64,000 nucleotides of DNA from a virus: the IMG/VR virus record IMGVR_UViG_3300032252_000001, positions 1-64,000 of that record. One strand, given 5' to 3'. Positions 4,472-23,840 of this stretch are shown here, in pieces (the first letter of the stretch is position 1; every line of letters starts with the position of its first letter). A program made the translations under genes and the position numbers. A model generated the notes under the pieces. That model saw only the letters and a program-made list of their open reading frames with translations, was not told the DNA's origin and made no database searches.

Positions 4472-4516
4472 CTGATCTTGAGTCGCCACCCATTGGTAGG
4501 GACTTTTCAGGTGCAG

Positions 4517-4557: not shown

Positions 4558-4820
4558 GTCATCAAGCCTTCCTGAATACGTGCTACGTCGTCTTCAGTGA
4601 GACCAAGGGGTGGCTCAAGGACATTGTAGTGTCGTACCTCGAAGTGAGTACCATGGTTCGTGATCACCAACATGTCACCCTGCTCTGGTAGCAGCTCGTA
4701 CACATTCACCGTCCCGGTTTTCTCATTGATGATGCCCATGGGCGGCATGATGTCCCAGCTTTCAGGGTCAAGCAACTCGCTCCAGCGTACTATTCCCCCC
4801 ATCTTCCCCCCGTATTTCAT
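4548..4820 (-). CDS. Hypothetical protein
   Basis: A 90-residue protein. A GTG-ATG pair directly follows the TGA of the upstream coiled-coil gene, so translation is probably coupled. The sequence starts MKYGGKMGGIVRW and has a central strand-rich part (TVNVYELLPEQGDMLVITNH). There is no membrane segment and no recognised motif. An operator-like pair overlaps the start codon (4817-4854), hinting at independent regulation. The family is unknown to me. Confidence 0.55.
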   Translation of the reverse strand: MKYGGKMGGIVRWSELLDPESWDIMPPMGIINEKTGTVNVYELLPEQGDMLVITNHGTHFEVRHYNVLEPPLGLTEDDVARIQEGLMTWH

Positions 4821-4854
4821 CACTCAGTGTGAACCTTTTATCGCTTCCTGTAAT
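4817..4854. promoter_or_regulatory. Operator-like tandem dyads at a gene junction
   Basis: TCATCAC-TCA-GTGTGAA at 4817-4833 is a close match to the operator consensus. A weaker copy, TTATCGC-TTC-CTGTAAT, lies exactly 21 bp away at 4838-4854. The pair overlaps the stop of the coiled-coil gene and the start of the next gene. A GATAAA hexamer on the minus strand could be a -10, but no convincing -35 is visible. Confidence 0.4.
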
Positions 4855-11247: not shown

Positions 11248-11283
11248 CTCAGAAGTCTACCATTCACAGGGACAGATATGTAT

Positions 11284-11346
11284 TTACCACTCATTGATAC
11301 TTTTTTCACAGTAGGTGTTGACTACTGATTCCATCGGAACTATAGT
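11284..11346 (+). promoter_or_regulatory. Early promoter with tandem operator pair
   Basis: TTGACT (11318-11323), a 17-nt spacer and TATAGT (11341-11346) form a near-consensus sigma70 promoter reading into the early genes. Dyad TTCACAG-TAG-GTGTTGA (11305-11321) overlaps the -35. A second, weaker copy, TTACCAC-TCA-TTGATAC, lies 21 bp upstream (11284-11300). The region is also directly upstream of the divergent terminase small subunit, for which no clear promoter was found. Confidence 0.8.
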
Positions 11347-11372
11347 AGGGCCATCGAAAAGAGGAAGAGGAA

Positions 11373-11693
11373 ATGAGGTTAATCGTACTTTACAACATGG
11401 AAAGAACCCGCTTTGGTCGCTGGTTCATGGAAGGATACCCGGCAAAGTTTCATGCCCTTCCTTTCGTCGGACTGATGACCTTCACCGGGCCAAAAGAAAG
11501 GCGCTGTGACTCTCTCGTCAAGCACGAGCTGATTCACTACTACCAAGCTCAGCGCGAAGGCTGGCTGATGTGGAACATCCACTACTACCGCGAACTCTGG
11601 ACTGTCGGCTACATGAATGTCAGTTACGAGATCGAAGCCTACGCAAAGATGTACGAACCGCTCACGGAGGGTGAGCGCAGCTTAATAGGATGA
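11373..11693 (+). CDS. Small HExxH zincin-like early protein
   Basis: A 106-residue protein, first gene after the early promoter, with a GAGGAAGAGGAA leader before ATG. It contains KHELIHYYQAQREGW and later SYEIEAYAKM. HExxH followed by a distal conserved E is the arrangement of gluzincin-type metallopeptidases, and many small phage and bacterial proteins share this H-E-x-x-H-x-x-Q...Y-E-x-E-A pattern. It is short for a protease and has no signal peptide, so an early host-protein cleaving role is only a hypothesis. The stop overlaps the next start. Confidence 0.65.
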   Translation: MRLIVLYNMERTRFGRWFMEGYPAKFHALPFVGLMTFTGPKERRCDSLVKHELIHYYQAQREGWLMWNIHYYRELWTVGYMNVSYEIEAYAKMYEPLTEGERSLIG

Positions 11694-12523
11694 GAACAAT
11701 GTATAGCTACAGAGATGAAGAAAAGATTGAAGTTGGTGTAGAGGTTTACCTTTTCTACCCCGGTGGTATGGGCAAACGTGGCCGGTATGAAGGGCCACTG
11801 AAGATCACCAAAACCACGAAGACGCAGTTCACCGCTGGTGGCGAGCGCTTCATAAAGAGTAACGGTCGCAAGGTTGGAAGCCCATACGGACGTTTCTCAC
11901 CAAGTGTTCAGATCGCAACAGCAGAGGTGAAACGAGAGGTTACCGAGTTTCGTGCTGAGACCATGCGCCTGAAAGATGCCGCTCGACTGGAAGCCGATTC
12001 GGCAGAGAGACAGAGCCGCGAGAAGTACGGCGCGACAGCTATCACCAATGAAGCCATTCAGGATGCGTGCCTGAAACCGCTACGCTCCCTCGCTGAATGT
12101 GGTGAGAAAGAGATGAGCAGCCTGCTCGACGCTTTCAAAGACGTGAGCATCGAGAACGATAACTTCTGGAGAGTAGAGGACGCTATCGAGCGCGAGAACC
12201 GCAACAACAGCTTCGCGTACGGCAAGGTAATTCGTGACCAAGCGATAACCCTGCACCAGAGCCTTGTTGACCTGATCCTTGAGTTCGAGGCTGGCACGCG
12301 CTACGAGGTTGATGGTGTTGAGATTAAAACGGCTGAAGAGCTGGTGAACAAGAAGCTCAGGCGCGTCCTGAGCGAACAGTATCGCAGGTTCTTTGGCTAC
12401 ACGTTCAGCAACAGCGACATCAGCACGGCTGACCAGAGGTTCATCACTACGCTGCGCGAGATACTGGGCGACAGCGAGTACGACGGCCAGCTGAAGCGCA
12501 TCAAGACAGAAGAGGTGGCGTGA
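11690..12523 (+). CDS. Hypothetical early protein
   Basis: A 277-residue protein starting at the ATGA junction at 11690; a second ATG at 11699 has a better GGA spacing. Residues 1-75 are basic and beta-rich (EVYLFYPGGMGKRGRYEGPL). A long helical region follows (about 85-200), then a region ending YSEYDGQ-like near the C-terminus. There are no nucleotide-binding or nuclease motifs. It sits in the early operon between the HELIH protein and several tiny genes. The family is unknown. Confidence 0.6.
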   Translation: MRTMYSYRDEEKIEVGVEVYLFYPGGMGKRGRYEGPLKITKTTKTQFTAGGERFIKSNGRKVGSPYGRFSPSVQIATAEVKREVTEFRAETMRLKDAARLEADSAERQSREKYGATAITNEAIQDACLKPLRSLAECGEKEMSSLLDAFKDVSIENDNFWRVEDAIERENRNNSFAYGKVIRDQAITLHQSLVDLILEFEAGTRYEVDGVEIKTAEELVNKKLRRVLSEQYRRFFGYTFSNSDISTADQRFITTLREILGDSEYDGQLKRIKTEEVA

Positions 12524-12753
12524 TGAGTCAACAAACGGAACTGGGGCTTTACACCGACGCTGATACTGAAACTATCCGGTTTGAGCTGAATGGATGTAAG
12601 TACCAAATTAAACGCGACACGTCGCGTCAGCCCCTGATGCCGCAGTGGTACGTGCAGCGCATGTCCGATCTGCGAACAACTAAACGCTACTACTCGTGGC
12701 CAGACGGAGCGTTCTCCGCAGTGTTCTGGGGCCGGTGTGGCTGGGAAGACTAA
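12523..12753 (+). CDS. Hypothetical small early protein
   Basis: A 76-residue protein; ATG 12523 overlaps the previous TGA, with AGAGGTGG upstream. It is aromatic-rich (PQWYVQRMSDLRTTKRYYSW) and ends in a Trp/Cys-containing tail. It is probably a soluble single domain. The family is not recognised. Confidence 0.55.
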   Translation: MSQQTELGLYTDADTETIRFELNGCKYQIKRDTSRQPLMPQWYVQRMSDLRTTKRYYSWPDGAFSAVFWGRCGWED

Positions 12754-12767
12754 ACGAGGAAACGATC

Positions 12768-12956
12768 ATGATGACAAAAGAGACGGTGCTGTCCGGGGCT
12801 AACCACCCCGGCACAGAGTTGGAGATTCTTGAAACTCCAGCTGGAGCCTTTTATCTCGGCTTCCGTGATGAGGACGGACTGCCATATTCGCGGGAGTCTG
12901 TTTACTTTGGTGACCGGGCTTCAGCGTTTCAGGTTTTAGAGTACATGAGGTCATGA
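12768..12956 (+). CDS. Hypothetical small early protein
   Basis: A 62-residue protein starting at the ATG-ATG pair behind GAGGAAACGATC. It encodes a beta-rich sequence (AGAFYLGFRDEDGLPYSRES) and ends with a helix. Its TGA overlaps an ATG, but the better start of the next gene is 48 nt further on. The family is unknown. Confidence 0.55.
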   Translation: MMTKETVLSGANHPGTELEILETPAGAFYLGFRDEDGLPYSRESVYFGDRASAFQVLEYMRS

Positions 12957-12985
12957 AAATCATGTTCACTAAAATCATGTTCACT
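12956..12985 (+). repeat. 15-bp perfect tandem duplication
   Basis: Two adjacent copies of AAAATCATGTTCACT separate two early genes. If translation began at 12953 this would add a duplicated K-I-M-F-T block. The GAGG site before ATG 13001 argues that it is leader sequence instead. Confidence 0.7.
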
Positions 12986-13000
12986 AAAGAGGATTTAACC

Positions 13001-13213
13001 ATGAACAGCAAATATAAAATTGTACTGCTTCCTATCGAGGTTCCCGAGGGGCCGTACTGCTGGAAGGGCGACACGCCCTGCGAGTACTTCGATAACTACG
13101 GTGGCCATGGCCGCTGCACGATACCGGGAATGTATGTGCGTGAAGAATCGAAAGGGTCTTGGAACATTCTCAAAGACCCGAAATGTGCATCAGCAGAAGG
13201 AAAACAGTTATGA
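13001..13213 (+). CDS. Small cysteine-containing early protein
   Basis: A 70-residue protein from ATG 13001, behind GAGGATTTAACC. Four Cys (GPYCWKGDTPCEYFDNYGGH, then GRCTI and PKCAS) could form a zinc site or disulphides. It overlaps the next gene by 4 nt (ATGA). The family is unknown. Confidence 0.6.
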   Translation: MNSKYKIVLLPIEVPEGPYCWKGDTPCEYFDNYGGHGRCTIPGMYVREESKGSWNILKDPKCASAEGKQL

Positions 13214-13488
13214 GTCACAAAGAGAAAATCGCTGAGGGTCGTGACAACAGTCAGCGCTTGCATCGAACCATGACCAGTTATGGTCTGAGCAGGCGCTGGG
13301 TTGCCAAAGCGCTCAAGGTGCGTCTGTCAACGGTAACGCGATGGTTACAGCCAGAGAACAGCCCTTCTTATCGAGCAATGTCTGACTCGTATTTGAAGCT
13401 GCTGGAGTATGCGATCAACGACCCCGAGAACGGTCAGCTGTACCGCAACCCACCCGATCCAGAGGGGGAGCTACCACCACGACCTTAA
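13210..13488 (+). CDS. Helix-turn-helix regulator
   Basis: A 92-residue protein starting at ATG 13210 (AGAAGGA site, ATGA overlap). Residues about 22-45 read YGLSRRWVAKALKVRLSTVT followed by RWLQPENS, a clear HTH with a WVAKALKV positioning helix and STVTRWL recognition helix. A helical tail follows. The stop codon is immediately followed by an operator pair (13485-13522), so the protein may regulate the next promoter. It is one of the candidates for binding the 17-bp dyads. Confidence 0.65.
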   Translation: MSHKEKIAEGRDNSQRLHRTMTSYGLSRRWVAKALKVRLSTVTRWLQPENSPSYRAMSDSYLKLLEYAINDPENGQLYRNPPDPEGELPPRP

Positions 13489-13547
13489 CAGTAAGTGTGA
13501 ATTTTTTATCATTAGGTGTTGACTTCCTTTGGAACATCACCGATACT
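13485..13547 (+). promoter_or_regulatory. Early promoter with tandem operator pair
   Basis: TTGACT (13519-13524), 17 nt, GATACT (13542-13547). Dyads TTAACAG-TAA-GTGTGAA (13485-13501) and TTATCAT-TAG-GTGTTGA (13506-13522) repeat at 21 bp; the second merges with the -35. The promoter drives the DUF932-like gene. Confidence 0.8.
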
Positions 13548-13595
13548 TAACGAACTGAACCGCTGGGCTGTCTGGCGGTAATTTGGAGAAAAACA

Positions 13596-14714
13596 ATGAA
13601 ACGTGGAATGACACTCGAAAGCCTTCTCACCACCGTGGTCGAGCAACGCAAGACGAAGCGTGACTTCGTAGCCAATACCAAGGAATCCATTGCCATGGTT
13701 GACGCTGCCGACATGCCCAATCAGGTTGCTATAGTGCTGCGCAAGGAAGGTTCAGCTGAGTTGGAACGGTTCTCAATTACTGAGAACTGCCACCGTCAAA
13801 TCGCTGGTCGGCTTCAGATTCCTTGGAAGTATTACGACCGACTGCTGGCCGATCACCGTGACTTGGTGATCTCTCAGGTCAACGCCCTGTTTGAGCGTGA
13901 ACCCCAAACACGCTTGCTGCGCACTCTGGATGGCAAGGCTCGCGCCTTCCTGTCTGACCGCTACAAGGTGCTGGACAACGATCAGGTTCTGGAGCAGGTT
14001 TTGCCGCCGATAGTCCATGGCGACATCCAGTCCCAGCTGCTGTCCTCGAACATCACTGAGAACAAGATGTTCATGAAGGTCTTGTTCACTGACGACTCGC
14101 TGGCACAAGAGATCGGTACAACTCGTAATGGCACCCCTGACATCGTACGTCCGGGTGCTATCGTTGAGAACTCCGAGACTGGCCTTGGATCAATGACGAC
14201 GAAGGGTTTCTTCTACCGCGACTTTTGCCTTAACGGCTGCGTATTCGGTATGACGGAAATCTTCAGCACGAAGCGCATTCACCTCGGTGGTAAGTTGGTT
14301 GCCAACGGTGAGTTCGAGGTTTTCTCGGACGAGACCAAGCGTAAGCAAAACGAGCTGATCATCGCTGAGGTCACTGACACCATGACCGCGCTGACAAACC
14401 CTGAGAACGTCCAGAAGATGGGCGATGCCTTGCGAGCCACCAAAGAGGGCACACAGGTGAAGAACGCCTTCGCTGCCGTCGATCAGCTGGCCAAGGAAGT
14501 TCCGGTTCGTGACTCTGAGAAAGAGTCGATCATCGAGAACCTGTTGTCTGATGGCGACATGACTCGTTGGGGCATGTTGAACGCTGTCACCAAGGTTGCC
14601 AACACGGATGCCGTCGATTACGAACGCGCCTGCGAGTTGGAGAACATCGGTGGCCAGCTGCTGGACATGCAGATGAGCCAGTGGAACCGCATAGCCGTCG
14701 CAGAAGCGGCATAA
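13596..14714 (+). CDS. DUF932-family protein
   Basis: A 372-residue protein behind a GGAGAAAAACA site. It shows the DUF932 / phage-plasmid TIGR03299-type pattern: Gln/His-containing N-terminal region (about 70-90, IAGRLQIPWKYYDRLLA), then RAFLSDRYKVLDNDQVLEQV near residue 128, and a Gly-rich beta domain including GFFYRDFCLNGCVFGMTEIF. Family members occur in phages and plasmids near recombination and anti-defence genes, but the biochemical role is not established. It has its own promoter and is followed by a terminator, so it could be transcribed at high level alone. Confidence 0.75.
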   Translation: MKRGMTLESLLTTVVEQRKTKRDFVANTKESIAMVDAADMPNQVAIVLRKEGSAELERFSITENCHRQIAGRLQIPWKYYDRLLADHRDLVISQVNALFEREPQTRLLRTLDGKARAFLSDRYKVLDNDQVLEQVLPPIVHGDIQSQLLSSNITENKMFMKVLFTDDSLAQEIGTTRNGTPDIVRPGAIVENSETGLGSMTTKGFFYRDFCLNGCVFGMTEIFSTKRIHLGGKLVANGEFEVFSDETKRKQNELIIAEVTDTMTALTNPENVQKMGDALRATKEGTQVKNAFAAVDQLAKEVPVRDSEKESIIENLLSDGDMTRWGMLNAVTKVANTDAVDYERACELENIGGQLLDMQMSQWNRIAVAEAA

Positions 14715-14735
14715 CCTAACGGGGTGCCTAGAGTT

Positions 14736-14784
14736 GGCTTAAATGAGGCTCTGTGACAAAGCTGCAACCTCAGCCCTTTTTTTT
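14736..14784 (+). terminator. Rho-independent terminator/attenuator after DUF932 gene
   Basis: TGAGG (14744-14748) pairs with CCTCA (14768-14772), extended by GGC/GCC with a bulge, and is directly followed by eight T residues (14777-14784). The next gene starts 16 nt later with its own ribosome binding site, so partial read-through probably controls it. Confidence 0.7.
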
Positions 14785-14799
14785 AACTGGAGAAAAACA

Positions 14800-15342
14800 A
14801 TGTCAAAAGACCCACATCAATACGCAGCAAAGCTACTTGATCGGCTCATAAACCTTGATCAACAGGTCCATGGAGCCTTCTACGAGATGGGGCAGATTCT
14901 CTCTGCCATCGCTCACGGCAAGCTGCACGATATCCTTGGCTACGAATCGACAGGTCATCTGATTGACGAAGAGCTGTCGTTCTCGAAGTCTCAGGGCTAC
15001 CGATACCTGCATACCTTCAGGCACTTCAAGCGGCTCGGATATAACAAGACAGAGGCGCTGGACCTGATCAACGATTTCAGCTTCACGCACATGGCGAAGT
15101 ATCTGCCCACCGCTGACCAGAAGGTTGGCAAACGGGCTATCAGCAACGCCATCGCGAAGCAGATCGAGCAGGGCAGGCAGATCAACTTCCAGCTGAAGCA
15201 GAAGGACCTTGAGCTGCTGAAGAGGGTTCTAATCTCTCTGGGTGCAGAAGACCGTGAAGGCAGGCTAATGAACAGCTCCGAGGCGCTAATGGCGCTTGCT
15301 CGGGAGTTCGACCGCAGGCCAAAACTGAAAGCTGTAAGCTGA
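14800..15342 (+). CDS. DUF3102-like helical protein
   Basis: A 180-residue protein from ATG 14800, behind TGGAGAAAAACA. The arrangement AFYEMGQILSAIAHGKLHDI, then E-L-S-F-S-K-S-Q-G-Y-R-Y-L resembles DUF3102/ParB-adjacent helical proteins, in which a G-x-x-L-x-x-x-(K) helix precedes an S-x-x-x-A-x-R-Y DNA-binding-like helix. A Lys-rich helical tail follows (QLKQKDLELLKRVLISLGAE). It is probably DNA-associated; similarity is moderate. It is separated from the DUF932 gene by a strong terminator. Confidence 0.5.
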   Translation: MSKDPHQYAAKLLDRLINLDQQVHGAFYEMGQILSAIAHGKLHDILGYESTGHLIDEELSFSKSQGYRYLHTFRHFKRLGYNKTEALDLINDFSFTHMAKYLPTADQKVGKRAISNAIAKQIEQGRQINFQLKQKDLELLKRVLISLGAEDREGRLMNSSEALMALAREFDRRPKLKAVS

Positions 15343-15370
15343 AAAAAGGGGGGCAGCGTTTGCTGCCCCC
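15341..15370 (-). terminator. Terminator between convergent operons
   Basis: GGGGGCAGC (15349-15357) and GCTGCCCCC (15362-15370) form a 9-bp stem with a GTTT loop. Read leftward the stem is followed by TTTTTT, the canonical form, so it ends the helicase operon. Read rightward it may also slow transcription after the DUF3102-like gene. Confidence 0.85.
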
Positions 15371-15423
15371 TAATCAGTAGGTTTTGAAGAATAACAATGA
15401 ATGGCATTGGCCAGACCCACTGA

Positions 15424-15795
15424 CTATCTCACAATCTCCACCCGGACACCATACTCTGCTTCAACCATGGCTCGCCTGAGCCGGGAAGCGTTAGTATCCA
15501 TCCCCTTCACGTCCTCAACGTGCTTCTTGCCTCTATCATCAATGAACTCGAAGTCAGCCTTGTAGCTGGCCCTGCGACCGTTCGGATAGCGCTCAGATCG
15601 AATCAGGACATCCCTGCCACCACACTTCAGCCAGAACTTTGGCTGTAGTTTCAGGTCACTGATCTTGCCGCCCTTCTCCAGCGCTTTCAGCTCGCAATAG
15701 CGTTCGTATTCTCTTATTGAGTCGAAGGTGTGTCCGTCGAACTTGACCTTTTTGTTGTAGTACTTGGCTGGCTTTTTCTGTGCTGCTCTTCCCAC
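15424..15795 (-). CDS. DUF1064-type PD-(D/E)XK nuclease-like protein
   Basis: A 123-residue protein; I chose GTG 15795 (GGAGG about 7 nt upstream) over the ATG at 15858, which extends far into the previous gene. It has VKFDGHTFDSIREYERYCEL, basic strands, then YKADFEFIDDRGKKHVEDVK and GMDT-x-x-SRLRR. E-x(n)-D-F...H-V-E-D-V-K is the PD-(D/E)XK core of DUF1064/phage resolvase-like nucleases (D of ADFEF; E and K of VEDVK). Its likely role is cleavage of branched DNA before packaging or during recombination. It is the last gene of the helicase operon. Confidence 0.7.
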   Translation of the reverse strand: MGRAAQKKPAKYYNKKVKFDGHTFDSIREYERYCELKALEKGGKISDLKLQPKFWLKCGGRDVLIRSERYPNGRRASYKADFEFIDDRGKKHVEDVKGMDTNASRLRRAMVEAEYGVRVEIVR

Positions 15796-16103
15796 CTCAC
15801 TGCCTCCGCAAAAATGTTGTATGGCAGCTGGTTGTTCACCCAGATGAGGTGGTCCCATTGCCTGCCGAAATCCTTTTCCCAGCTCTCAACCCCATACCCG
15901 GAATCGATGCCAGAGTTTCCAGTATGGTACACGGCATTGAGTGGTATCTGTAGGAACGGGTTCTGTTTCTGCCCTACACCTACGTGCCAGCCCATGTCTT
16001 TCATGGACCCACCGTGGCAATGGTGCAGCGTGACAAACGGGCTGCGCGAGACGGCACACCGCAGCTGTCTCAAATACTTCTCGTGCTTACTAACCGACAC
16101 CAT
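15714..16103 (-). CDS. HNH/YbcO-DUF968-like recombination endonuclease
   Basis: A 129-residue protein from ATG 16103, overlapping the previous stop by 14 nt. The core reads VTLHHCHGGSMKDMGWHVGV then IPLNAVYHTGNSGIDSGYGV and SWEKDFGRQW. H-H-C-H-G-G-S followed by P-L-x-x-x-Y-H-T-G is the pattern of small phage HNH recombination nucleases of the YbcO/DUF968 type, with His and Cys forming the metal site. The tail is Ser/Thr-rich and overlaps the DUF1064-like gene. Together with that gene it suggests a resolvase/junction-processing pair. Confidence 0.65.
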   Translation of the reverse strand: MVSVSKHEKYLRQLRCAVSRSPFVTLHHCHGGSMKDMGWHVGVGQKQNPFLQIPLNAVYHTGNSGIDSGYGVESWEKDFGRQWDHLIWVNNQLPYNIFAEAVRWEEQHRKSQPSTTTKRSSSTDTPSTQ

Positions 16104-16533
16104 CCATCTTAACTCGCACGAACTCCCCAATCGGAATATGGTAGCACTGCTCGATGTCTTTTTTGTCGTTTCGGTCACGCCTTCCACCTTCAGCGACCCA
16201 CCAGTTTGCGGTTGACCCCTCGTCCAGTTGTCGCCACCAGACTCCATCACCCTCCCACCGAACGATAAGAAACACCGGCAACGGGTGCCAACGCTCTATC
16301 AGGCCATCTACCTTAGCTTTGCTAATCATGTAGGTTGTGTAATCGCTCCTGCTGCACGTCCTGCACTTGATCTCACCAATCGCCACACGCTCGCCACTGC
16401 GCCAGAACGATACATCTGGTGAGTAATCATCTATCTCCTTCACCTTCTTGTACGTGCAGTTCATATTCAAACAAAAGATTTTTGCCACACCGTCCTCATT
16501 AGTGCGGTCGCCTTTTGTCTCATACCTTGGCAT
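16090..16533 (-). CDS. PD-(D/E)XK-like nuclease
   Basis: A 147-residue protein. SPDVSFWRSGERVAIGEIKC has the PD-(x)n-(D/E)-x-K active-site arrangement (P-D, then G-E-I-K about 13 residues later), followed by CRTCSRSDYTTY, which with an earlier Cys pair (FCLNMNC) might bind metal. The C-terminus has paired Trp (GVWWRQLDE, NWWVAEGG). Likely a DNA endonuclease of the restriction-like fold. The start abuts the stop of the upstream gene, and its own stop overlaps the HNH gene. Confidence 0.6.
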   Translation of the reverse strand: MPRYETKGDRTNEDGVAKIFCLNMNCTYKKVKEIDDYSPDVSFWRSGERVAIGEIKCRTCSRSDYTTYMISKAKVDGLIERWHPLPVFLIVRWEGDGVWWRQLDEGSTANWWVAEGGRRDRNDKKDIEQCYHIPIGEFVRVKMDGVG

Positions 16534-17198
16534 CAGTATTCACCCTGCCACATCAGGAACGGTCGCCTGACCTCGTTGTGAAAGCGCTCTGCCAGCCTCT
16601 CATCTTTGTCCAGCTCAGACCGAGACTGGATGTCCAGATAACAATACAGCCACAGCCTTGCCGTGTCTTCGTCGTAGTCGCCGGGAGCCTGTGGGTTGAT
16701 CTCCCCAAGGTAACACCAGAACCCCTCGTTCTTACACAGCATCGCGGCGGCGTAGCTGGGGCGCTCTGAGGGCCGCGTACTCTGCTTCTCGACCCGATCC
16801 CTCACCTTCTGATCAATAATCTCTTCGTCGTCGTCCAGCTCCACCAGAGAGATGATCAGAGGCTGTTTACGACCGATGCCATCGAACGGATGGCCCAGCA
16901 GGTCACCACATAGCCAGAACTTCGCTGTGTGGCCGTTGGTCTGGCTGTCATTCCACCCGGCCAGCATCACCTCGTCTTCGTACAGCAGGTGCATGAGCGC
17001 GTCCTTCGCGTACGTCTGGCACACCATCATAAAGCGTGTCCCGGCTCTGCCCTTACGGCGCTTCGTGAACGCATGGAACGGGTTGCGCCTGTCCTCTGCG
17101 TCCTTGTCCATGGGCAGCTTGAAGGTCACGGTGCTGCCGTTCTCGTCGTTCCAGTCTGCTCTGGCCATGGTGACCTTGCCTGTCCATGCAATGCTCAC
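16533..17198 (-). CDS. Hypothetical protein of helicase operon
   Basis: A 221-residue protein starting MSIAWTGKVTMARADWNDEN. It has a basic patch (KRRKGRAGTRFMMVCQTY), a beta-rich centre (MLAGWNDSQTNGHTAKFWLC) and an acidic helical part (about 120-135). A C-terminal acidic helix contains DKDERLAERFHNEV. No catalytic signature is recognised. Its place between a small helical gene and the nuclease genes suggests a DNA-metabolism accessory role such as single-strand or junction binding. Confidence 0.6.
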   Translation of the reverse strand: MSIAWTGKVTMARADWNDENGSTVTFKLPMDKDAEDRRNPFHAFTKRRKGRAGTRFMMVCQTYAKDALMHLLYEDEVMLAGWNDSQTNGHTAKFWLCGDLLGHPFDGIGRKQPLIISLVELDDDEEIIDQKVRDRVEKQSTRPSERPSYAAAMLCKNEGFWCYLGEINPQAPGDYDEDTARLWLYCYLDIQSRSELDKDERLAERFHNEVRRPFLMWQGEY

Positions 17199-17461
17199 TG
17201 CTTCAGCTCCTTCAGTGCTTTCTTGTCGCTCTTTTTAATCCACAAGCGCACAATATCCTTCGCTATTCTGTAGTCCTTCATTTCGCGCACGTGATCGCCA
17301 AGCGAGCCTTCGTCTTCGTACATCCCTTCACCCATCCATGGGTCCCAGTCGTCACCATCACGTCCATTACAGACAACCAGCAGAATTGCCAGACGGTCAG
17401 CCAGCATCCTGATCCTAGTGTCAGCTACCAGCTGCACTCTGTCCTGTGTTTCGTTTTTCAT
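17195..17461 (-). CDS. Hypothetical helical protein
   Basis: An 88-residue protein from ATG 17461, preceded by GGAGAAG, overlapping the helicase 3' end by 41 nt. It is mostly helical (TRIRMLADRLAILLVVCNGR) with an acidic middle and a Lys-rich C-terminus (IKKSDKKALKELKQ). The stop overlaps the next start. The family is unknown. Confidence 0.55.
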   Translation of the reverse strand: MKNETQDRVQLVADTRIRMLADRLAILLVVCNGRDGDDWDPWMGEGMYEDEGSLGDHVREMKDYRIAKDIVRLWIKKSDKKALKELKQ

Positions 17462-18971
17462 TGTTAATCTTCTCCATTTTTTTTGCATACGCTATGTTGC
17501 GATGCCTGATGTATGCCTTCACCTCACCGTTCGGCTCCGAGGCTGGCATATCTTTATAGTAGTTCGGCCACACTTTGAATTTTGATTTGAATGTGTGCGC
17601 AACCCAACCTTCCTTCTTTCCGTTTAGCTCCGCGTATCCCTTCAGCATCGAGAACCAGTGCCGCTTCTCGTCCGTTGTCCAAACCTTCTTCTTTGCTGTT
17701 TTGCGTTTCTCTGCCCTGACCTCCATCAAGTCGCCTGAGCGAGACTCCACGTACTTGCCGTACTTCTCTGGGGTGTGCCCACAATGAGGACATACCAGTT
17801 GTCCGGTATAAACCGTCGCGCACTTCACGCATGTGATAGGCTTTCTTTCATCGAAGTCTTTTTGTCGGTCTGCTTTCGACGTGTGTAACGCCTTGCCCTC
17901 TTCGAGAACCCAGTCATGCTCATCTTGGATGAAGCCGTGTTCGTAGACGTTACCGCTATGGTCGAGGATGAAGCAGTCTTTCTTGTTGTCGGCTACTCGC
18001 AGGGTACGGCCACCCATCTGGAGATACAGGCCAAGATTCTTCGTAGGCCGCGCCAGAATATTACAGCTCAAACTCGGCTCATCGAAGCCCTCGGTAAAGA
18101 CCGCATAATTGCAGACAACCTGTATATTGCCTACCTTCAGGTCGGCTATGATTTGCTTTCGATCTTCCAGCGACGTGTCTCCATCTACGTGCGCTGCTTT
18201 AGCCCCTGCCTTGGCGAACTCGTCGCGCAAGTGAATCGAATGTTTGACCCCAGAGGCAAATACTATAGTTGGCCTGTCATGAGCAAGCCGATGCCAGTGT
18301 TCAACGATACCACCGACCAATGAGCGCTTATCCATTGCGCGTTCGAGTTCCCTTGGGTCGTAGTCTCCACCCTTCACTTTCACGCCAGTCAGGTCGGTTA
18401 TGTTTGGCGCAAACGTGACCGGCTCGCAGAGGTAGTCATGCTCGATCATCCAAGCAATGCTCGGCCCCTTAACCATGTAATCGTACACGTGACCCAGACC
18501 TTTGCCGTCTCCACGGATGGGTGTAGCCGTCAATCCAATGACGACATCTTCACCGTAGTGGTTGATCAGAGTGATGTAAGTCGGTGCAAGACTGCGGTGA
18601 GCCTCATCAACGATAATTATGTCCGAGTTGGGAAGGGGCAGCTTTTCCGTTGTGATACATCTGGCACGGATAGTGTCGATACTGGCCACCTGACAATCCG
18701 CTGCGCCGTATGGGTATTCACCGGCCATAAGAATGCCGTGGTCAACACCGAAATTAACCAGCTTGTCGGCACACTGGTAGATAAGCTCGCGGCGATGGGC
18801 GAGAAACATCGAACGACGCATCTTCTCCGCAGCAAGTTTTACGATCTGAGCTGCGATGACTGTCTTGCCACCCCCGGTCGGAACCACCACGAGTATCTTG
18901 CGATACCCCATGCCGATGGCTGACCTCACCTGATTGATGATGTCCCACTGCCAGTCCCATGGTGTGATCAT
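17421..18971 (-). CDS. SF2 DEAH helicase with zinc ribbon
   Basis: A 516-residue protein. Motif I is PTGGGKT (31-37), motif II DEAH (122-125), motif III TATP (148-151), and motif VI is the QMGGRTLR segment. After the helicase core, CVKCATVYTGQLVCPHCGHT forms a four-Cys zinc ribbon, followed by a basic helical tail. It belongs to the DEAD/DEAH family of phage helicases similar to RecG-like/UvsW-like and YprA-type unwinding ATPases. It probably remodels forks or recombination intermediates, acting with the exonuclease/annealing module and the nearby nucleases. It overlaps the upstream gene by 4 nt. Confidence 0.85.
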   Translation of the reverse strand: MITPWDWQWDIINQVRSAIGMGYRKILVVVPTGGGKTVIAAQIVKLAAEKMRRSMFLAHRRELIYQCADKLVNFGVDHGILMAGEYPYGAADCQVASIDTIRARCITTEKLPLPNSDIIIVDEAHRSLAPTYITLINHYGEDVVIGLTATPIRGDGKGLGHVYDYMVKGPSIAWMIEHDYLCEPVTFAPNITDLTGVKVKGGDYDPRELERAMDKRSLVGGIVEHWHRLAHDRPTIVFASGVKHSIHLRDEFAKAGAKAAHVDGDTSLEDRKQIIADLKVGNIQVVCNYAVFTEGFDEPSLSCNILARPTKNLGLYLQMGGRTLRVADNKKDCFILDHSGNVYEHGFIQDEHDWVLEEGKALHTSKADRQKDFDERKPITCVKCATVYTGQLVCPHCGHTPEKYGKYVESRSGDLMEVRAEKRKTAKKKVWTTDEKRHWFSMLKGYAELNGKKEGWVAHTFKSKFKVWPNYYKDMPASEPNGEVKAYIRHRNIAYAKKMEKINNEKRNTGQSAAGS

Positions 18972-19261
18972 TTCAGAAAGCCTTGTTCGCGCTGACGGCG
19001 AATCTTCTCTTGCATGTAGGCTTTCTTTCCGGCTGGTGTGCGCCGGTATTTATTCACGCTGCGCACGAAAGACCGGTATCCCTTCATCTCGACCAGACCC
19101 CTCTTGACCAGACGGCGAGCGGTGCCGCTGTGATGGCTCGCATCCCACGCACCGAAGTCCATTGGCTTTAGCCACTCAGTATCTGAGAGCTGCCATAGTA
19201 CCTCGAACTGATTGTCTGTTAGTTGCTGCAAGCGTATCTCCCGCGCACGTGGCCTTCCCAC
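18968..19261 (-). CDS. Winged-helix-like DNA-binding protein
   Basis: A 97-residue basic protein; only TTG (19276) or GTG (19261) starts are available before an in-frame stop. I prefer GTG. The middle reads FEVLWQLSDTEWLKPMDFGA then GTARRLVKRGLVEMKGY, a winged-helix pattern with R-L-V-x-R-G-L-V before the wing. The C-terminus is Lys/Arg-rich (AYMQEKIRRQREQGFLK). It lies upstream of and overlaps the helicase. It probably binds DNA, as a regulator or a helicase loader; evidence is from sequence pattern only. Confidence 0.55.
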   Translation of the reverse strand: MGRPRAREIRLQQLTDNQFEVLWQLSDTEWLKPMDFGAWDASHHSGTARRLVKRGLVEMKGYRSFVRSVNKYRRTPAGKKAYMQEKIRRQREQGFLK

Positions 19262-19394
19262 CCCAGCGTGGCGCAAAGCGACGACTTACGGTTTAGGTCT
19301 CCCACCTGTTCTCCCCACCGTATGGTCGTGGTCACCGGACGCGAGTTCAGGATGTGAGTTGCGGTCACGCCTGCATCCAACACCGACTGGTGGA

Positions 19395-19472
19395 GATGCT
19401 TGACTTGTTTAGACAGGGCAGTGTGGTAGGATTGCCTTGTCTGATGTTTCGCCGGTCAAGCATCAACATCAG
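19395..19472. other. Structured non-coding region with nested and alternative stems
   Basis: The 243-bp gap between 19276 and 19520 holds no convincing gene. GATGCTTGAC (19395-19404) pairs perfectly with GTCAAGCATC (19455-19464), enclosing a 9-bp stem GACAGGGCA/TGCCTTGTC (19412-19420 with 19433-19441, one G-T pair). CTGATGTT/AACATCAG (19441-19448 with 19465-19472) is a mutually exclusive 8-bp stem. Such switching structure suits a small RNA, an attenuator, an origin or a protein-binding site. No promoter is clear. Confidence 0.5.
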
Positions 19473-19476
19473 ATTT

Positions 19477-19509
19477 GAAGCCCCACTTGCGTCTCTGCGG
19501 TGGGGCTTC
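19477..19509. terminator. Hairpin downstream of XRE-like repressor gene
   Basis: GAAGCCCCAC (19477-19486) and GTGGGGCTTC (19500-19509) form a perfect 10-bp stem with a 13-nt loop. Rightward it is followed by GTTATTTATA and leftward by AAATCTG, so T-runs are poor on both sides. It is probably the end of the 19520 transcript or the 3' end of an RNA made from the structured region. Confidence 0.55.
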
Positions 19510-19519
19510 GTTATTTATA

Positions 19520-19774
19520 CTACTTGTCGAATATCTCTTCAACCGTCATTGGGTAATCATTGCGCTTTGCGTACTCGACTATCTTCAGCGCAGCTGGCCC
19601 ACGCGGCTTCGACTTCCCTTCGGTCTCCCAAACCCTGAGCGTGTCCACGTTCACACCCAATAGCTCAGCAAACTCGTGCCTGTCCATCCGTAACTCTTCA
19701 CGAAAACGACGTATTGTGTTGGGGTGCGGTGGCTTTGCGTCTGGTCGTAAACTCGGGCCGTAGGGGTCTGCCAT
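19520..19774 (-). CDS. XRE-family HTH repressor candidate
   Basis: An 84-residue protein; ATG 19774 follows an AAGAGAG site. Residues about 20-60 read TIRRFREELRMDRHEFAELL then GVNVDTLRVWETEGK, the HTH_3/XRE pattern with W-E-x-G-K ending. The length and single HTH resemble Cro-like repressors and antitoxin-type regulators. It is divergent from the recombination operon across an operator pair (19800-19837), so it is the best-placed candidate to bind the dyads. No toxin partner is adjacent. Confidence 0.75.
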   Translation of the reverse strand: MADPYGPSLRPDAKPPHPNTIRRFREELRMDRHEFAELLGVNVDTLRVWETEGKSKPRGPAALKIVEYAKRNDYPMTVEEIFDK

Positions 19775-19799
19775 CACAGTTGCTCTCTCTTATTTCTGT

Positions 19800-19861
19800 T
19801 TATCGGTGAGGGATGAAACTTTACCACTGAGTGTTGACTTTTACCAGCTCTCAGGCATACT
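19800..19861 (+). promoter_or_regulatory. Divergent control region with tandem operator pair
   Basis: TTGACT (19834-19839) and CATACT (19856-19861, 16-nt spacer) form the rightward promoter for the recombination module. Dyads TTATCGG-TGA-GGGATGA (19800-19816) and TTACCAC-TGA-GTGTTGA (19821-19837) repeat at 21 bp and overlap the -35. Leftward, TGGTAA and GATAAA 16 nt apart could serve the XRE gene, so a bound protein could control both directions. Confidence 0.75.
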
Positions 19862-19911
19862 ACTCTGACGAACCGTACTGGCTGTCAGTACGCAATAATC
19901 AGGAGAGAACT

Positions 19912-20859
19912 ATGGCACTCACGCCAGAGCAGCTTGAACAGCGACGATCAGGTATTGGTGGGTCAGATGCAGCCACCGTGCTGGGACTCAACCCATTCAC
20001 CACGGCCTACGAGCTTTACCTTGACAAGATTGGTGAAGCGCCACCCGAAGACGAAGATTTTTTGAAAGAGTCTCGCTACTGGGGCAGCGTTCTCGAAGAG
20101 CCAGTATGCAATCGTTACGCTGAAGAGTTCGACTACAAGATTCAGCGAGCCAACCAACTCATCCGCTCCAAAGAACACCCATTCATGATAGCCAACATCG
20201 ACCGAAAGGTCGTTGGCCTGAAGCAATTGCGCATAGGGTTTGAAGCTAAAACCGCAGCTCGTCCTGATGGCTGGGGCGAGTCAGGCAGCGCAGAAATACC
20301 ACCGTATATCATGCTCCAGTGTCAGCACTATCTGGCTGTCACCGGCTACGACTTCTGGGACTTGGCGGTGTTGATTGGCAATAGGGATTTCCGTACTTAC
20401 AGGATTGCCCCGATTCATGACATGATCGATGAGCTGGTCGCAGCTGAGCAAGAATTCTGGGACCGCGTTGAAAACCGTGTCGCTCCAGAACCTCAGTGGC
20501 AATCAGCAGCAACGACACGCCTGATAAAGAACCTCTACCCCGGCACCAACGGTCAGGTAGTAGAGCTACCTACTGTTGCGCAAACATATCAGGACGTACT
20601 GAAAGATGCTCAAGAACAAGCGAAACTATTCAACGGTGTTATCGACGGCTGCAAGAACCGCATCGCTATGCTCATGGGAGAAGCCGCAGTCGGAATCCTC
20701 CCAGATGGATCGGCCTACACCCGCAAAGAACAAAAGCGTAAGGCTTTCGAGGTTCCAGAGACCACCTTCATTGCTACCAGACACACCACAAAGCTCCCAG
20801 TGGCTGCGACCAAAGCAATCGAAGAAGGGACCTTAATCAAGATCGAGAACAACTCGTGA
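19912..20859 (+). CDS. YqaJ-type viral recombinase (lambda exonuclease-like)
   Basis: A 315-residue protein; ATG 19912 has AGGAGAG upstream. The N-terminus RRSGIGGSDAATVLGLNPFT is the YqaJ signature. FEAKTA (E-x-K of the PD-(D/E)XK site) and YIMLQCQHYLAVTGYDFWDL follow. It is a 5'-3' double-strand exonuclease that leaves 3' single strands for the RecT-like annealase downstream. The C-terminal 90 residues are helical and not needed for the fold in smaller homologues. It is the first gene of a tightly overlapping operon. Confidence 0.85.
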   Translation: MALTPEQLEQRRSGIGGSDAATVLGLNPFTTAYELYLDKIGEAPPEDEDFLKESRYWGSVLEEPVCNRYAEEFDYKIQRANQLIRSKEHPFMIANIDRKVVGLKQLRIGFEAKTAARPDGWGESGSAEIPPYIMLQCQHYLAVTGYDFWDLAVLIGNRDFRTYRIAPIHDMIDELVAAEQEFWDRVENRVAPEPQWQSAATTRLIKNLYPGTNGQVVELPTVAQTYQDVLKDAQEQAKLFNGVIDGCKNRIAMLMGEAAVGILPDGSAYTRKEQKRKAFEVPETTFIATRHTTKLPVAATKAIEEGTLIKIENNS

Positions 20860-21152
20860 GCAGGTTCCCGGTAACGATTAACGACGACGGCACGGTGCAG
20901 TGGCACGGCGTTGATACCGGCAAGACCAAGGTGCTGGCTATGAGTTCAGACCCAAAGCTGATCGCCCTGCATATAGCTGGGCACAGCTTCTGGTCCGGGC
21001 GATGCCAGCATTACGCAAACGCGGAGATCGTGGTGCATAAGTATGAAGATGGGCCAAACCCTCGCAAGATATTTTTAGTTGAGCTGTTCGGCGTAATGAG
21101 CTGGCCAGCACGAGGCGACAAGTGGACACCAAAGCATGGAGAAGAACTATGA
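20856..21152 (+). CDS. Hypothetical protein between exonuclease and RecT
   Basis: A 98-residue protein starting at GTG 20856 inside the stop of the exonuclease gene. It has ALHIAGHSFWSGRCQHYANA and a C-terminus ending KWTPKHGEEL. It is beta-rich with several His and Cys but no known motif. Coupled translation with exonuclease and RecT suggests a recombination accessory. The family is not recognised. Confidence 0.55.
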   Translation: MSRFPVTINDDGTVQWHGVDTGKTKVLAMSSDPKLIALHIAGHSFWSGRCQHYANAEIVVHKYEDGPNPRKIFLVELFGVMSWPARGDKWTPKHGEEL

Positions 21153-21280
21153 ATGCTACACAAAGAATCGAAGACATCACCAAGCGTATCGCAGCAACCA
21201 GTGACCTGAAGAAACTGGAGCGCCTGTGCGGAGAACTCAAGGCCGCATGTCATCAGCTTGAAGGTGAGATAAAGAAATGA
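21149..21280 (+). CDS. Small helical protein, 43 residues
   Basis: A short ORF tied at both ends by ATGA overlaps. It encodes MNATQRIEDITKRIAATSDL, then KKLERLCGELKAACHQLEGE, one or two amphipathic helices likely to form a coiled coil. The length and coupling suggest a small partner of the recombination proteins. Confidence 0.55.
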   Translation: MNATQRIEDITKRIAATSDLKKLERLCGELKAACHQLEGEIKK

Positions 21281-22254
21281 CTACCAACAAAACATGTAAG
21301 GCGAAAGCCAGCGCAACCGGCAAGCAGTGCAAGCGCAAGCCCGTTAAAGAGGGCTACTGCAAACAGCACTATGAACAGCTGCATCCGCAGACTAAAGAGC
21401 AGACGATTGTTGAGGCGGCGGCTGAGGCGGCGGCTGATGATTCCACAGAGAACTATCCGCTCGACACGACCGAGGCCACCAGCGGTGGTGACGTGTATCA
21501 GGTTGACCTGACTGCACACTCACCGGAGTTCCAGAAGTTCGAGATCGCCAAGCGCATCGCACACACGCTGGCCAACTCAAACCTCGTACCCGATGCCTAC
21601 CGTGGTCGAGCCAACGATTGTTTCGTAGCGATCAATATGGGTGCAGAGATCGGCCTTGAGCCGTTCTCAGCTATCCAGAGCATCGCTGTGATTGACGGAA
21701 AGCCCTGCCTGTATGGCGACGGTATGATTGGTGTTGTTCGCGCATCCCCCCTATGCGAATGGATCAAAGAGACGCTCTCCGATGATGGTAAAACTGCAAC
21801 GTGTGAGACCAAGCGCAAAGGCGAACCTCACACCGTGACGGCGACGTACTCTATGTCCGACGCGATGCAGGCAGGCATTGATTCCAAGTTCAACTGGAAG
21901 AAACACCCGAAGCGGATGCTACAGATGCGAGCGCGGTCGTACTGCTTACGTGACGCATATCCCGATCTGCTGAAGGGTCTGGGTGTCGTGGAAGAGATGG
22001 TGGACCACGAGGATACACCGCCACCAGTGAACAACTACGAGCTGCCTACGCCCCCACCACAAGCGCTGCCAGAAGGCGGCAAGGAAGAGCAGGTCACGCT
22101 GGCCATGGTAGAACGTGCAATGCACCAGTCCGACTCTATGGAAGAACTGCTGAAGGCTGCTGAGATGGCTAAGCAGCTTGGCCAGATGGATCAGGGCACG
22201 GCTCGCATCACCTACTCGAAGATGCGCAAGGTACTGCTTGAGGATGCGTCATGA
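21277..22254 (+). CDS. RecT-family annealing recombinase with N-terminal zinc-finger-like motif
   Basis: A 325-residue protein. Residues 7-32 read CKAKASATGKQCKRKPVKEG then YCKQHYEQL, a C-x(n)-C-x(n)-C-x(n)-H knuckle found in other phage proteins. A Thr/Asp-rich linker leads to the RecT core (about 85-235): DAYRGRANDCFVAINMGAEI, AVIDGKPCLYGDGMIGVVRA and MLQMRARSYCLRDAYPDLLK. RecT promotes annealing of single strands after exonuclease digestion. A C-terminal proline-rich linker and helical domain follow. The fused zinc knuckle is atypical of lambda-like RecT and may target DNA. Confidence 0.85.
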   Translation: MTTNKTCKAKASATGKQCKRKPVKEGYCKQHYEQLHPQTKEQTIVEAAAEAAADDSTENYPLDTTEATSGGDVYQVDLTAHSPEFQKFEIAKRIAHTLANSNLVPDAYRGRANDCFVAINMGAEIGLEPFSAIQSIAVIDGKPCLYGDGMIGVVRASPLCEWIKETLSDDGKTATCETKRKGEPHTVTATYSMSDAMQAGIDSKFNWKKHPKRMLQMRARSYCLRDAYPDLLKGLGVVEEMVDHEDTPPPVNNYELPTPPPQALPEGGKEEQVTLAMVERAMHQSDSMEELLKAAEMAKQLGQMDQGTARITYSKMRKVLLEDAS

Positions 22255-22499
22255 CTGGGAACTTTGAAGTACTCACAGATGAGCAAATGAGAATCTTCAA
22301 ATCATGCAGTGACGAAATCACTCGGCTGCGCAAGCTGGTACTCATGGGCAAGCGCGTTGTCGATGACTTCCTGCCAAACATTGGCAACTGCGCCCTGCAA
22401 AACTATGGCGAGCTGAATGAGTTCATGATCCTCGCTGGTCAGGAAGAGGAAAAGACAACGGAGATTGGACATGAAGGTCCGACTAAAACGAAAGATTAA
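22251..22499 (+). CDS. Hypothetical protein downstream of RecT
   Basis: An 82-residue acidic protein, overlapping RecT by 4 nt. It starts MTGNFEVLTDEQMRIFKSCS and is helical with Glu/Lys-rich end. It overlaps the next gene by 29 nt. No motif is recognised; it is probably a recombination or SSB-associated accessory. Confidence 0.5.
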   Translation: MTGNFEVLTDEQMRIFKSCSDEITRLRKLVLMGKRVVDDFLPNIGNCALQNYGELNEFMILAGQEEEKTTEIGHEGPTKTKD

Positions 22500-22632
22500 G
22501 TGCTTCTTTGGGCTTCATGCCCCGGACACGATCTACACGCAGGGCGACCACCTTGTGCAACGGTGCCTGTACTGCGACAAGATCGTGGTCCGGGTTGAAA
22601 ATAAACAACGAAAGATTCGGAGAATCCAGTAA
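22471..22632 (+). CDS. Small basic zinc-ribbon-like protein
   Basis: A 53-residue protein with a GGAGATTGGAC site. It is Lys/Arg-rich with C11, C32 and C35 (KCFFGLHAPDTIY, RCLYCDKIVV), the pattern of DUF1660-like small phage zinc proteins (one Cys/His pair, then CxxC). It overlaps the upstream gene and ends at TAATG with ssb. It may bind nucleic acid. Confidence 0.6.
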   Translation: MKVRLKRKIKCFFGLHAPDTIYTQGDHLVQRCLYCDKIVVRVENKQRKIRRIQ

Positions 22633-23048
22633 TGAGAGGCATCAACAAAGTTATTCTGATTGGCAATCTGGGCCAAGACCCAGACATGAAATACATGCCA
22701 GACGGCACAGCGCTCTGCACGTTTTCTGTAGCGTGTAATGAGAGCTGGAAAGACAAATCTACCGGGGAGATGAAAGAGCGAACCGAGTGGGTGAACGTCG
22801 ATGTCTGGGGTAATAACGCTGAAGCCTGCGGCAAGTTTCTTAGCAAGGGCAAGTCATGCTATGTCGAAGGCAGCTTGCGCACGGACAAGTGGCAGGACAA
22901 AGAAGGCAACGACCGTTACACGACCAAGGTAAAAGCCAACACCGTCATGTTCCTTGGTGGCGGGAAAGGTCAGGGTCAAGAGCCAAACCAGCCGACACCC
23001 AAGAGGGACGAGCCTCAGCCAGACTTTGACGACGACATTCCATTCTAG
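22632..23048 (+). CDS. ssb: Single-stranded DNA-binding protein
   Basis: A 138-residue protein. MRGINKVILIGNLGQDPDMK is the SSB N-terminus. ERTEWVNVDVWGNNAEACGK and YVEGSLRTDKWQDKEGNDRY follow the OB-fold pattern, and the acidic tail DDDIPF is the canonical protein-interaction tip. It coats single-stranded DNA and recruits recombination and replication proteins, here probably the exonuclease, RecT-like protein and helicase. It is the last strongly conserved gene before the operator at 23052. Confidence 0.95.
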   Translation: MRGINKVILIGNLGQDPDMKYMPDGTALCTFSVACNESWKDKSTGEMKERTEWVNVDVWGNNAEACGKFLSKGKSCYVEGSLRTDKWQDKEGNDRYTTKVKANTVMFLGGGKGQGQEPNQPTPKRDEPQPDFDDDIPF

Positions 23049-23051
23049 GGC

Positions 23052-23103
23052 ATCACACCGGGTGATAATAAATTACCACTCAGTGTGAAAAGTGTGTTAT
23101 AAT
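23052..23103 (+). promoter_or_regulatory. Promoter with tandem operator pair
   Basis: TATAAT (23098-23103) is a perfect -10. ACCACT, 17 nt upstream (23075-23080), is the only candidate -35 and lies inside dyad TTACCAC-TCA-GTGTGAA (23073-23089). Dyad ATCACAC-CGG-GTGATAA (23052-23068) is 21 bp upstream. A bound protein could substitute for the weak -35 as an activator or block it as a repressor. Confidence 0.7.
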
Positions 23104-23140
23104 GTCTTCATCCCAAAGGGATTTTTTCTTGGAGAAGACA

Positions 23141-23413
23141 ATGGAATTTCAGCTAAAATCATACAAAACAGAGCATGGCATCAAGACCGTTTTGGTTGGA
23201 GAACCGGGACGTAAGCTGCTACCGATATTGATGATGGACAACGGGCTGGTGCTGAGGAAGGTGCCAAAGACAGAAGAGCGCTACTTGTCTGAAGTTGTCG
23301 AAGACAAGAAGCGCCGCAGCCTAATGCCAGTCCTTAATCAGTTTGCCTCATACGGCAAGCGCAATGGATCGAGCAAAGCCGCGAAACAATTCATCAGGCA
23401 GTGCCGGTCATAA
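23141..23413 (+). CDS. Hypothetical early protein
   Basis: A 90-residue protein from ATG 23141 (GGAGAAGACA site), just downstream of the TATAAT promoter. The sequence is basic (MEFQLKSYKTEHGIKTVLVG, then a Lys/Arg-rich helix, SEVVEDKKRRSLMPVLNQFA). It could be nucleic-acid binding. The family is not recognised. Confidence 0.6.
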   Translation: MEFQLKSYKTEHGIKTVLVGEPGRKLLPILMMDNGLVLRKVPKTEERYLSEVVEDKKRRSLMPVLNQFASYGKRNGSSKAAKQFIRQCRS

Positions 23414-23435
23414 CAATAGCCAACAAAGGTGCTGT

Positions 23436-23615
23436 ATGGCTGACTTCATTCACATGAGCAATATCATTCAGGGCGAAGTGATCCGCATCAGGGAGCGCCG
23501 CCCTCTTGACCAGCAATACGACGATCTGAGCGCTCTTGAGTCTTTCCTGAGAGATCAGGCACAAGCTGTACTGCTGGAAAAGATCAGGGTCAAAGACCTC
23601 ACACGAGATACCTGA
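23436..23615 (+). CDS. Hypothetical small protein
   Basis: A 59-residue protein from ATG 23436 behind AAAGGTG. It starts MADFIHMSNIIQGEVIRIRE and is charged and helical. It ends directly at the next operator pair. The family is unknown. Confidence 0.5.
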   Translation: MADFIHMSNIIQGEVIRIRERRPLDQQYDDLSALESFLRDQAQAVLLEKIRVKDLTRDT

Positions 23616-23653
23616 TCACTTGACACTGGTAAAACTTTCACACACAGTGTGAA
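23616..23653 (+). promoter_or_regulatory. Operator-like pair with perfect dyad
   Basis: TTCACAC-ACA-GTGTGAA (23637-23653) has perfectly complementary 7-bp arms, the best dyad in the set. The partner 21 bp upstream (23616-23632) is poor. TTGACA (23620-23625) is a consensus -35, but no -10 stands at 16-18 nt. It lies just before the last rightward gene. Confidence 0.55.
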
Positions 23654-23654
23654 T

Positions 23655-23840
23655 ATGAACACGCGGTATGTGAAAACTTTAGCTGCAACTGAGAAGGTCG
23701 TGCATGTCGCGTACCGGTGCGGGTGTGTGTGTACGTTTCACGTGGAACGAAATCACATGCCACGAACACAGTGCGCTACTCATGGGGATGGTCAAGCCAG
23801 CTTCACTGAGGAATATCAGCGTCGGCCTGTGGCTGCGTAA
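23655..23840 (+). CDS. Small cysteine-rich protein, 61 residues
   Basis: Starts at ATG 23655 immediately after the perfect dyad. RCGCVCTFHVERNHMPRTQC and ATH give a C-x-C-x-C...H...C-x-x-H cluster that could bind zinc. Its 3' end overlaps the convergent spanin gene by 38 nt. No ribosome binding site is visible because the operator occupies the leader, so expression is uncertain. Confidence 0.4.
   Translation: MNTRYVKTLAATEKVVHVAYRCGCVCTFHVERNHMPRTQCATHGDGQASFTEEYQRRPVAA

Follow-up and report, generated by a model that had tools for sequence, protein, structure and literature searches.

Gene context of the record

The window considered here spans 64,000 bp, bases 1–64000 of a 69,458-bp IMG/VR virus record, whose last 5.5 kb were read too, so that the entire record was scanned. 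Divergent genes for an XRE-family protein and a YqaJ/RecE-like exonuclease, the latter followed by a gene for a RecT-like annealing protein, flank one of several paired 17-bp dyads dispersed over the record (Table 1); the exonuclease frame as listed opens with GTG 19831, which falls within the operator. The contig ends map about 170 bp apart in the relative G002, which indicates that the phage genome (~70 kb) is close to complete and circularly permuted, and makes an integrase hidden in the gap unlikely. In this genome and four relatives (G000–G004), a search for tyrosine and serine integrases, covering the phage integrase (PF00589) and resolvase (PF00239) families, gave no match, in agreement with a preliminary description of the DNA in which no integrase was visible; no ParA-type partition ATPase (PF13614) was found in the same five records. 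A near-DNA search against phage records gave no match. One MAG contig (L068), labelled Desulfuromonadales, carries the XRE gene and pairs; it may be a binned phage contig, and no host assignment is drawn from it.

Table 1. Operator pairs, candidate promoters and neighbouring genes, in window coordinates
Feature	Position	Strand	Remarks
Pair 4520/4541	4520..4557	-	dyad 1 ends in GTGACA -35, dyad 2 in TATAAA -10; spacer 16
Candidate promoter GTGACA-16-TATAAA	4544	-	within pair 4520/4541
Pair 4817/4838	4817..4854	-	right member weak; overlaps start of gene 4548-4823(-)
Pair 11284/11305 with weak third dyad 11263	11263..11321		third dyad also at 21-bp pitch; divergent gap terS(-)/gene 11373(+)
Promoter-like TTGACT-17-TATAGT	11318..11346	+	-35 overlaps end of dyad 11305
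Second HTH protein, 92 aa	13210-13488	+	unlikely operator-binding protein
Pair 13485/13506	13485..13522	+	before DUF932 gene; runs into TTGACT-17-GATACT
Candidate promoter TTGACT-17-GATACT	13519	+	continues from pair 13485/13506
XRE-family single-domain regulator, 85 aa	19520-19777	-	proposed operator-binding protein
Pair 19800/19821	19800..19837		19800 weak; between divergent XRE(-) and exonuclease(+)
Candidate promoter TTGACT-16-CATACT	19834	+	continues from strong dyad 19821
YqaJ/RecE-like exonuclease	19912..20859	+	likely start ATG 19912 behind GGAGAG
RecT-like annealing protein	21277..22254	+	downstream of exonuclease, same direction
Pair 23052/23073	23052..23089	+	before extended -10 TGTTATAAT; downstream gene likely starts at 23141
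Pair 23616/23637 with possible third dyad 23658	23616..23674	+	23616 weak; before gene 23655-23840
Intragenic pair 60311/60332	60311..60348	-	inside scaffold-like head gene 59878-60885(-)

Dyads paired at a fixed pitch

The operator family consists of 17-bp dyads with the consensus TTAcCACTnAGTGtTgA and CAC/GTG cores; several right members end in TGTTGA, the symmetry being broken exactly where the -35 box TTGACT starts. All dyads listed in the preliminary description are present, and at each of the seven places that it named (7/7) their starts are exactly 21 bp apart. Under leave-one-pair-out scoring, these seven pair positions rank 3rd to 9th of about 69,400 at the 21-bp pitch; among offsets from -70 to +70 tested around the strong dyads, -21 had a mean score of +6.6 and the next best offset one of -8.9. 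Such a fixed pitch suggests, and is compatible with, two dimers sitting cooperatively on adjacent dyads.

A first iterated matrix drifted, giving many weak coding matches, and was replaced by one built from relatives only and one built from the window only. The relatives-only matrix, which is not fully independent since homologous sites share ancestry, though the regions have diverged, recovered all seven pairs; it gave eight pair positions with a summed score of at least 16 in the 69,458-bp genome, six of them with at least 20, whereas 60 simulated genomes (order-3 Markov) contained none at 16 or above and reached 15.4 at the highest. A matrix scan of the kind proposed in the preliminary description thus places the 21-bp pairs well above simulated chance. 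Taken as single sites, some of the partners score poorly (rank 180 for 4838 and rank 245 for 23616, with 19800 and 11284 moderate), and some weak partners may be unoccupied.

The sites had been expected to cluster upstream of gene starts, and overall they do, in a region that is 83% coding, with gene starts partly chosen by the analyst: six of the seven pairs overlap coding sequence by 0–10 bp. The exception is the 4817 pair, which overlaps it over all 38 bp. The preliminary description had missed the pair 60311/60332 in a late gene, the weaker third sites 11263 and 23658, and the intragenic pair 11894/11915; the last is without counterpart in G002 and is not counted as an operator. The pair 41451/41472, upstream of gene 40943-41449, was left out despite recurring in three relatives, because it falls within the last part of a short coding frame (IINLWQNFTKKG*) and takes in a likely ribosome-binding site, the synonymous-codon p value being only 0.02. 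Single dyads within genes (65613, 13770, 2454, 63762, 54335, 58428) showed inconsistent constraint beyond coding need in relatives and are not taken as operators.

Promoters at the sites

At 11318, 13519 and 19834 the second dyad runs into a TTGACT promoter with 16–17-nt spacing, as had been claimed, and these three promoters are confirmed as sequence. The dyad at 23073 had been said to cover the only candidate -35; the sole good element there is the extended -10 TGTTATAAT, so that this dyad indeed covers the -35 region. Two layouts can be distinguished: in one, the second dyad continues into the -35; in the other, the -35 coincides with the end of the first dyad and the -10 with that of the second, the pair spanning the core promoter. 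This second layout is seen at 4520 in this genome and, in relatives, in a pair upstream of the exonuclease gene. Both layouts, as read from the sequence, would predict repression.

Conservation in relatives

Relatives were fetched with the exonuclease and XRE genes as queries, and three near-complete ones, G001 (73.6 kb), G002 (70.4 kb) and G003 (67.8 kb), were read whole. The window-only matrix found 8, 9 and 6 pair positions, respectively, with a summed score of at least 15, where the simulations averaged 0.13, 0.07 and 0.03, and the 21-bp pitch is therefore conserved beyond this genome, as the preliminary description had anticipated. Judged by gene order, the pairs at the terS promoter (11284/11305), between the XRE and exonuclease genes, and at gene 23655 (23616/23637) have counterparts in all three (3/3), and those at 4520 and 4817 in G002 and G003. 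The 4520/4541 pair faces gene 4056-4493(-), and its counterparts (G002 55541, G003 2372) are weaker; those of 4817/4838 lie at G002 55219 and G003 1502. The pair 13485/13506 is present in L019 and absent at the orthologous place in G001–G003, as is 23052/23073 from the orthologous place in these three genomes. Since some pairs recur and these two do not, the regulon is partly fixed and partly turning over.

In relatives, a structured tRNA-like RNA, with an acceptor-like stem, a D-like arm and a T-arm with a 7-nt loop, lies between an operator pair and the exonuclease gene. A covariance model from four of these RNAs found four others in the same place (E 1e-9 to 1e-4) and had no match in the window; two further sequences (L017, L067) resemble it by eye. 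Across eight sequences, 20 of 31 pairs have changes in both partners and pairing holds in 94% of cells, with no slid control above 49%, although the alignment had itself been fitted to the structure. Neither Rfam nor ARAGORN put a name to the RNA.

The intragenic pair

When codons were redrawn with the protein kept and the genome's own usage, the observed score at 60311 was reached with p of about 0.0002 in G000, 0.0008 in G003, 0.0002 in G002 and 0.002 in G001, the G000 value being biased, as the site was chosen there, and the positions in G001–G003 being fixed by homology. The pair at 60311 clearly ranks first of 29,738 aligned coding positions, with a mean of 13.0, to which the window's own choice adds, against -1.7 for the next. 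The pair score at the G001 counterpart is low (2.7), and this copy may be degenerate. These values argue that 60311/60332 is kept beyond coding need in relatives.

The XRE protein as candidate regulator

The XRE protein matches the HTH_3 domain (PF01381) with 25.4 bits, above the curated cut-off of 23, and is the sole HTH_3 match in each of the five genomes searched. Its AlphaFold2 model (mean pLDDT 79.5) has a predicted five-helix fold; Foldseek matches include CylR2, HigA2, SinR, P22 c2 and 434 Cro, with weak E-values (best 0.037), and a profile search returned Atu1735 and HigA antitoxins first. In nine aligned XRE copies, DTLRVWE is invariant in the predicted recognition helix. All aligned XRE loci (12/12) carry a strong site fused to the -35 (TTACCACTnAGTGTTGACT), about 45 bp from the XRE start codon, the strong dyad and TTGACT being nearly invariant; 21 bp before it lies a weaker left partner, which has a recurrent form of its own (TTATCAgGAAGGG). 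In this genome the corresponding dyad, 19821, is the top-scoring single site under the relatives' matrix. Six exonuclease loci (L087–L091 and L013; exonuclease identity 34–42%) have neither XRE nor pairs; these outgroups may simply infect other hosts, which leaves a host regulator a slight formal possibility. The pairs and the XRE gene are thus common to a group of related phages, which bears out the earlier view of a dedicated circuit in a phage with no visible integrase. The sites themselves, their pitch, their overlap with promoters, their conservation and their occurrence together with XRE are all read from sequence, and jointly they make the 85-aa XRE protein the most likely operator regulator and a repressor network of paired dyads probably the best explanation overall.

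Three other explanations were weighed against this one. The preliminary description had placed both HTH proteins next to such sites; as regulator, XRE fits and the 13210-13488 protein does not. Operator binding by the latter, either by itself or competing with XRE in the manner of CI and Cro in lambda, would account for its gene directly adjoining the pair at 13485, for its weak matches to phage repressor profiles, and for L019 keeping both gene and pair; against it, no such protein was detected in G002, where there are nine pair positions, and in G001 and G003 the homologues lack adjoining dyads, which leaves this reading improbable. Slightly less probable still is a host transcription factor, with the phage exploiting host regulation, despite the presence of sites over many promoters and an inverted repeat resembling general bacterial operator designs: the XRE loci have the strong site at the XRE gene itself, the exonuclease loci without XRE are also without sites, and the TCACA/TGTGA arms of the dyad stand in reverse order to those of a CRP site.

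Finally, conserved -35 and -10 elements and their spacing could by themselves give rise to apparent 21-bp dyads with no regulator involved, since the dyad ends often coincide with the -35 (TTGACT) or the -10 (TATAAT) and the pitch is near promoter spacing. However, the CAC-T-n-A-GTG core belongs to no sigma-70 promoter element, strong sites reach upstream of the -35, and the intragenic pair is under constraint, so that promoter architecture alone is the least credible of the three, and very improbable.

Proposed mechanism

The arrangement is read here as a network of dispersed repressor sites lying over the -35 regions of divergent and early promoters, with a single regulator most likely switching promoters throughout the genome. 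The steps proposed are XRE binding, occupancy by dimers, cooperativity and repression. As a single HTH domain of the lambda-repressor/Cro fold, XRE would bind one 17-bp dyad as a dimer, and two dimers would sit two helical turns apart on the same DNA face; it has no visible oligomerisation domain, and cooperativity would therefore need direct dimer–dimer contact. In the gap between the XRE and exonuclease genes, the strong dyad lies over the exonuclease -35 and the pair also over the expected XRE promoter region, from which it is proposed that XRE would repress the recombination genes and itself. The pairs at terS, DUF932, 23141, 23655 and 4056-4823 would lower those promoters together, and the one inside the head gene at 60311 would either serve as a roadblock or silence an internal promoter. 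Control of the early and recombination operons, as first suggested, is too narrow a description, because the terminase-small-subunit promoter and a site in a late head gene carry pairs as well.

The network may serve some other form of lysogeny, or the timing of the lytic cycle. A more specific reading, put forward tentatively and thought rather unlikely as a whole, is that a lineage without lysogeny genes uses a single-domain lambda-like repressor as a genome-wide timer, with early promoters shut, autoregulation, a roadblock in the late head gene and, in relatives, control of the tRNA-like RNA.

Comparison with known systems

The analysis maps a testable candidate regulon for an uncultured phage group, in which a single small protein would act at eight or more paired sites, with definite predictions as to the promoters under its control. 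A question that follows is why an operator network of the immunity type is retained by a phage in which neither integrase nor partition genes were found. With its uniform 21-bp pitch and one-domain regulator, this is a compact system for studying cooperative repression, and the conserved intragenic pair provides a test case for repressor roadblocks outside mycobacteriophages, in which repressor bound at L5-type intragenic stoperators halts elongation.

The nearest known kinds are the immunity systems of lambda, P1 and L5. In lambda, 17-bp dyads with a CAC...GTG core form operators in two clusters, with a pitch of 20–24 bp. As at OL/OR, the sites of CI and Cro, the dyads here are grouped, 17 bp long and of the same core, and lie over the -35 of divergent promoters, with a regulator of the lambda-repressor fold beside them; one feature of the lambda switch, a repressor gene next to operators that overlap divergent promoters, is found at XRE(-)/exonuclease(+), where 19800/19821 lies over TTGACT. 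Unlike lambda, the phage has at least eight dispersed pairs, always at 21 bp, and whereas CI carries a C-terminal domain, the regulator here is 85 aa long without one, and no integrase was found; no CI-type repressor with a C-terminal oligomerisation/cleavage domain accompanied by a separate Cro was identified, the 85-aa single-domain protein being the only HTH_3 match per genome, though a more diverged second regulator may be encoded as well.

The C1 repressor of P1 acts on 22 dispersed 17-bp sites, which are asymmetric, ATTGCTCTAATAAATTT (PMC8546580); one repressor with many dispersed 17-bp sites is the shared feature, while the sites here are palindromic and paired, and P1 is kept as a plasmid, whereas no ParA was found here. 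The cluster A mycobacteriophage L5 has many repressor sites spread over its genome, part of them inside transcribed genes or beyond their ends (PMC6550527), and these stoperators resemble the present sites in being genome-wide and in part intragenic (60311 here). However, L5-type sites are 13 bp long, asymmetric and bound by a two-domain monomer (PMC9283540), in contrast to the symmetric 17-bp dyad pairs and the single small HTH domain found here. The controller (C) proteins of restriction–modification systems share with XRE the small HTH protein and a strong and a weak dyad at its own promoter, as in C.Esp1396I, where two adjacent dimers occupy one 35-bp operator with a strong distal and a weak proximal dyad (PMC4041747); they control one restriction–modification system, in contrast to the many phage promoters here, and activation by XRE is not indicated. 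The present system differs from the known kinds in its single-domain regulator, its uniform pitch, the absence of the lysogeny genes searched for and its intragenic pair; it nonetheless belongs with the dispersed repressor networks known from P1 (PMC8546580) and L5 (PMC9283540, PMC6550527), and is built of lambda-like paired dyads.

tRNA-Like RNAs and Other Features

In relatives of the virus, the gene for the YqaJ exonuclease is separated from a promoter covered by operators by a conserved RNA of predicted tRNA-like fold, which shows strong compensatory changes; neither Rfam nor ARAGORN gave it a name, and it is absent from the window. The RNA model also has a second, weak match (E 0.22) in the near-complete relative G002 at 50715-50801 (-), adjoining the operator pair at 50860, the operator of the terminase-small-subunit gene, and this match may be due to chance. 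One relative's locus, L068 (JAQYVZ010000060.1), is a 7.2-kb contig carrying XRE and two operator pairs and binned with a Desulfuromonadales MAG, which may hint at the host or may reflect mis-binning of a phage contig.

Features in the window and in relatives' loci (L)
Feature	Position	Strand	Remarks
tRNA-like RNA	L005:9814-9977
tRNA-like RNA	L006:9860-9990
tRNA-like RNA	L009:7022-7141
tRNA-like RNA	L068:1647-1754	-
tRNA-like RNA	L008, L011, L012, L015
tRNA gene	window 8457-8534	-	8-nt anticodon loop CTTTCAAT
Single open frame	window 25426-38658	-	4,410 aa; 13 kb
Weak dyad pair	window 41451-41488		overlaps end of small frame

The weak dyad pair, found again in three relatives, also overlaps the likely ribosome-binding site of the gene at 40943-41449 (-). 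The giant open frame takes up one fifth of the genome and shares only 34-38% identity with its counterparts in relatives. ARAGORN reads the anticodon of the window tRNA gene as 'ttca'; its enlarged loop resembles that of frameshift-suppressor tRNAs or that of an aberrant tRNA-Glu.
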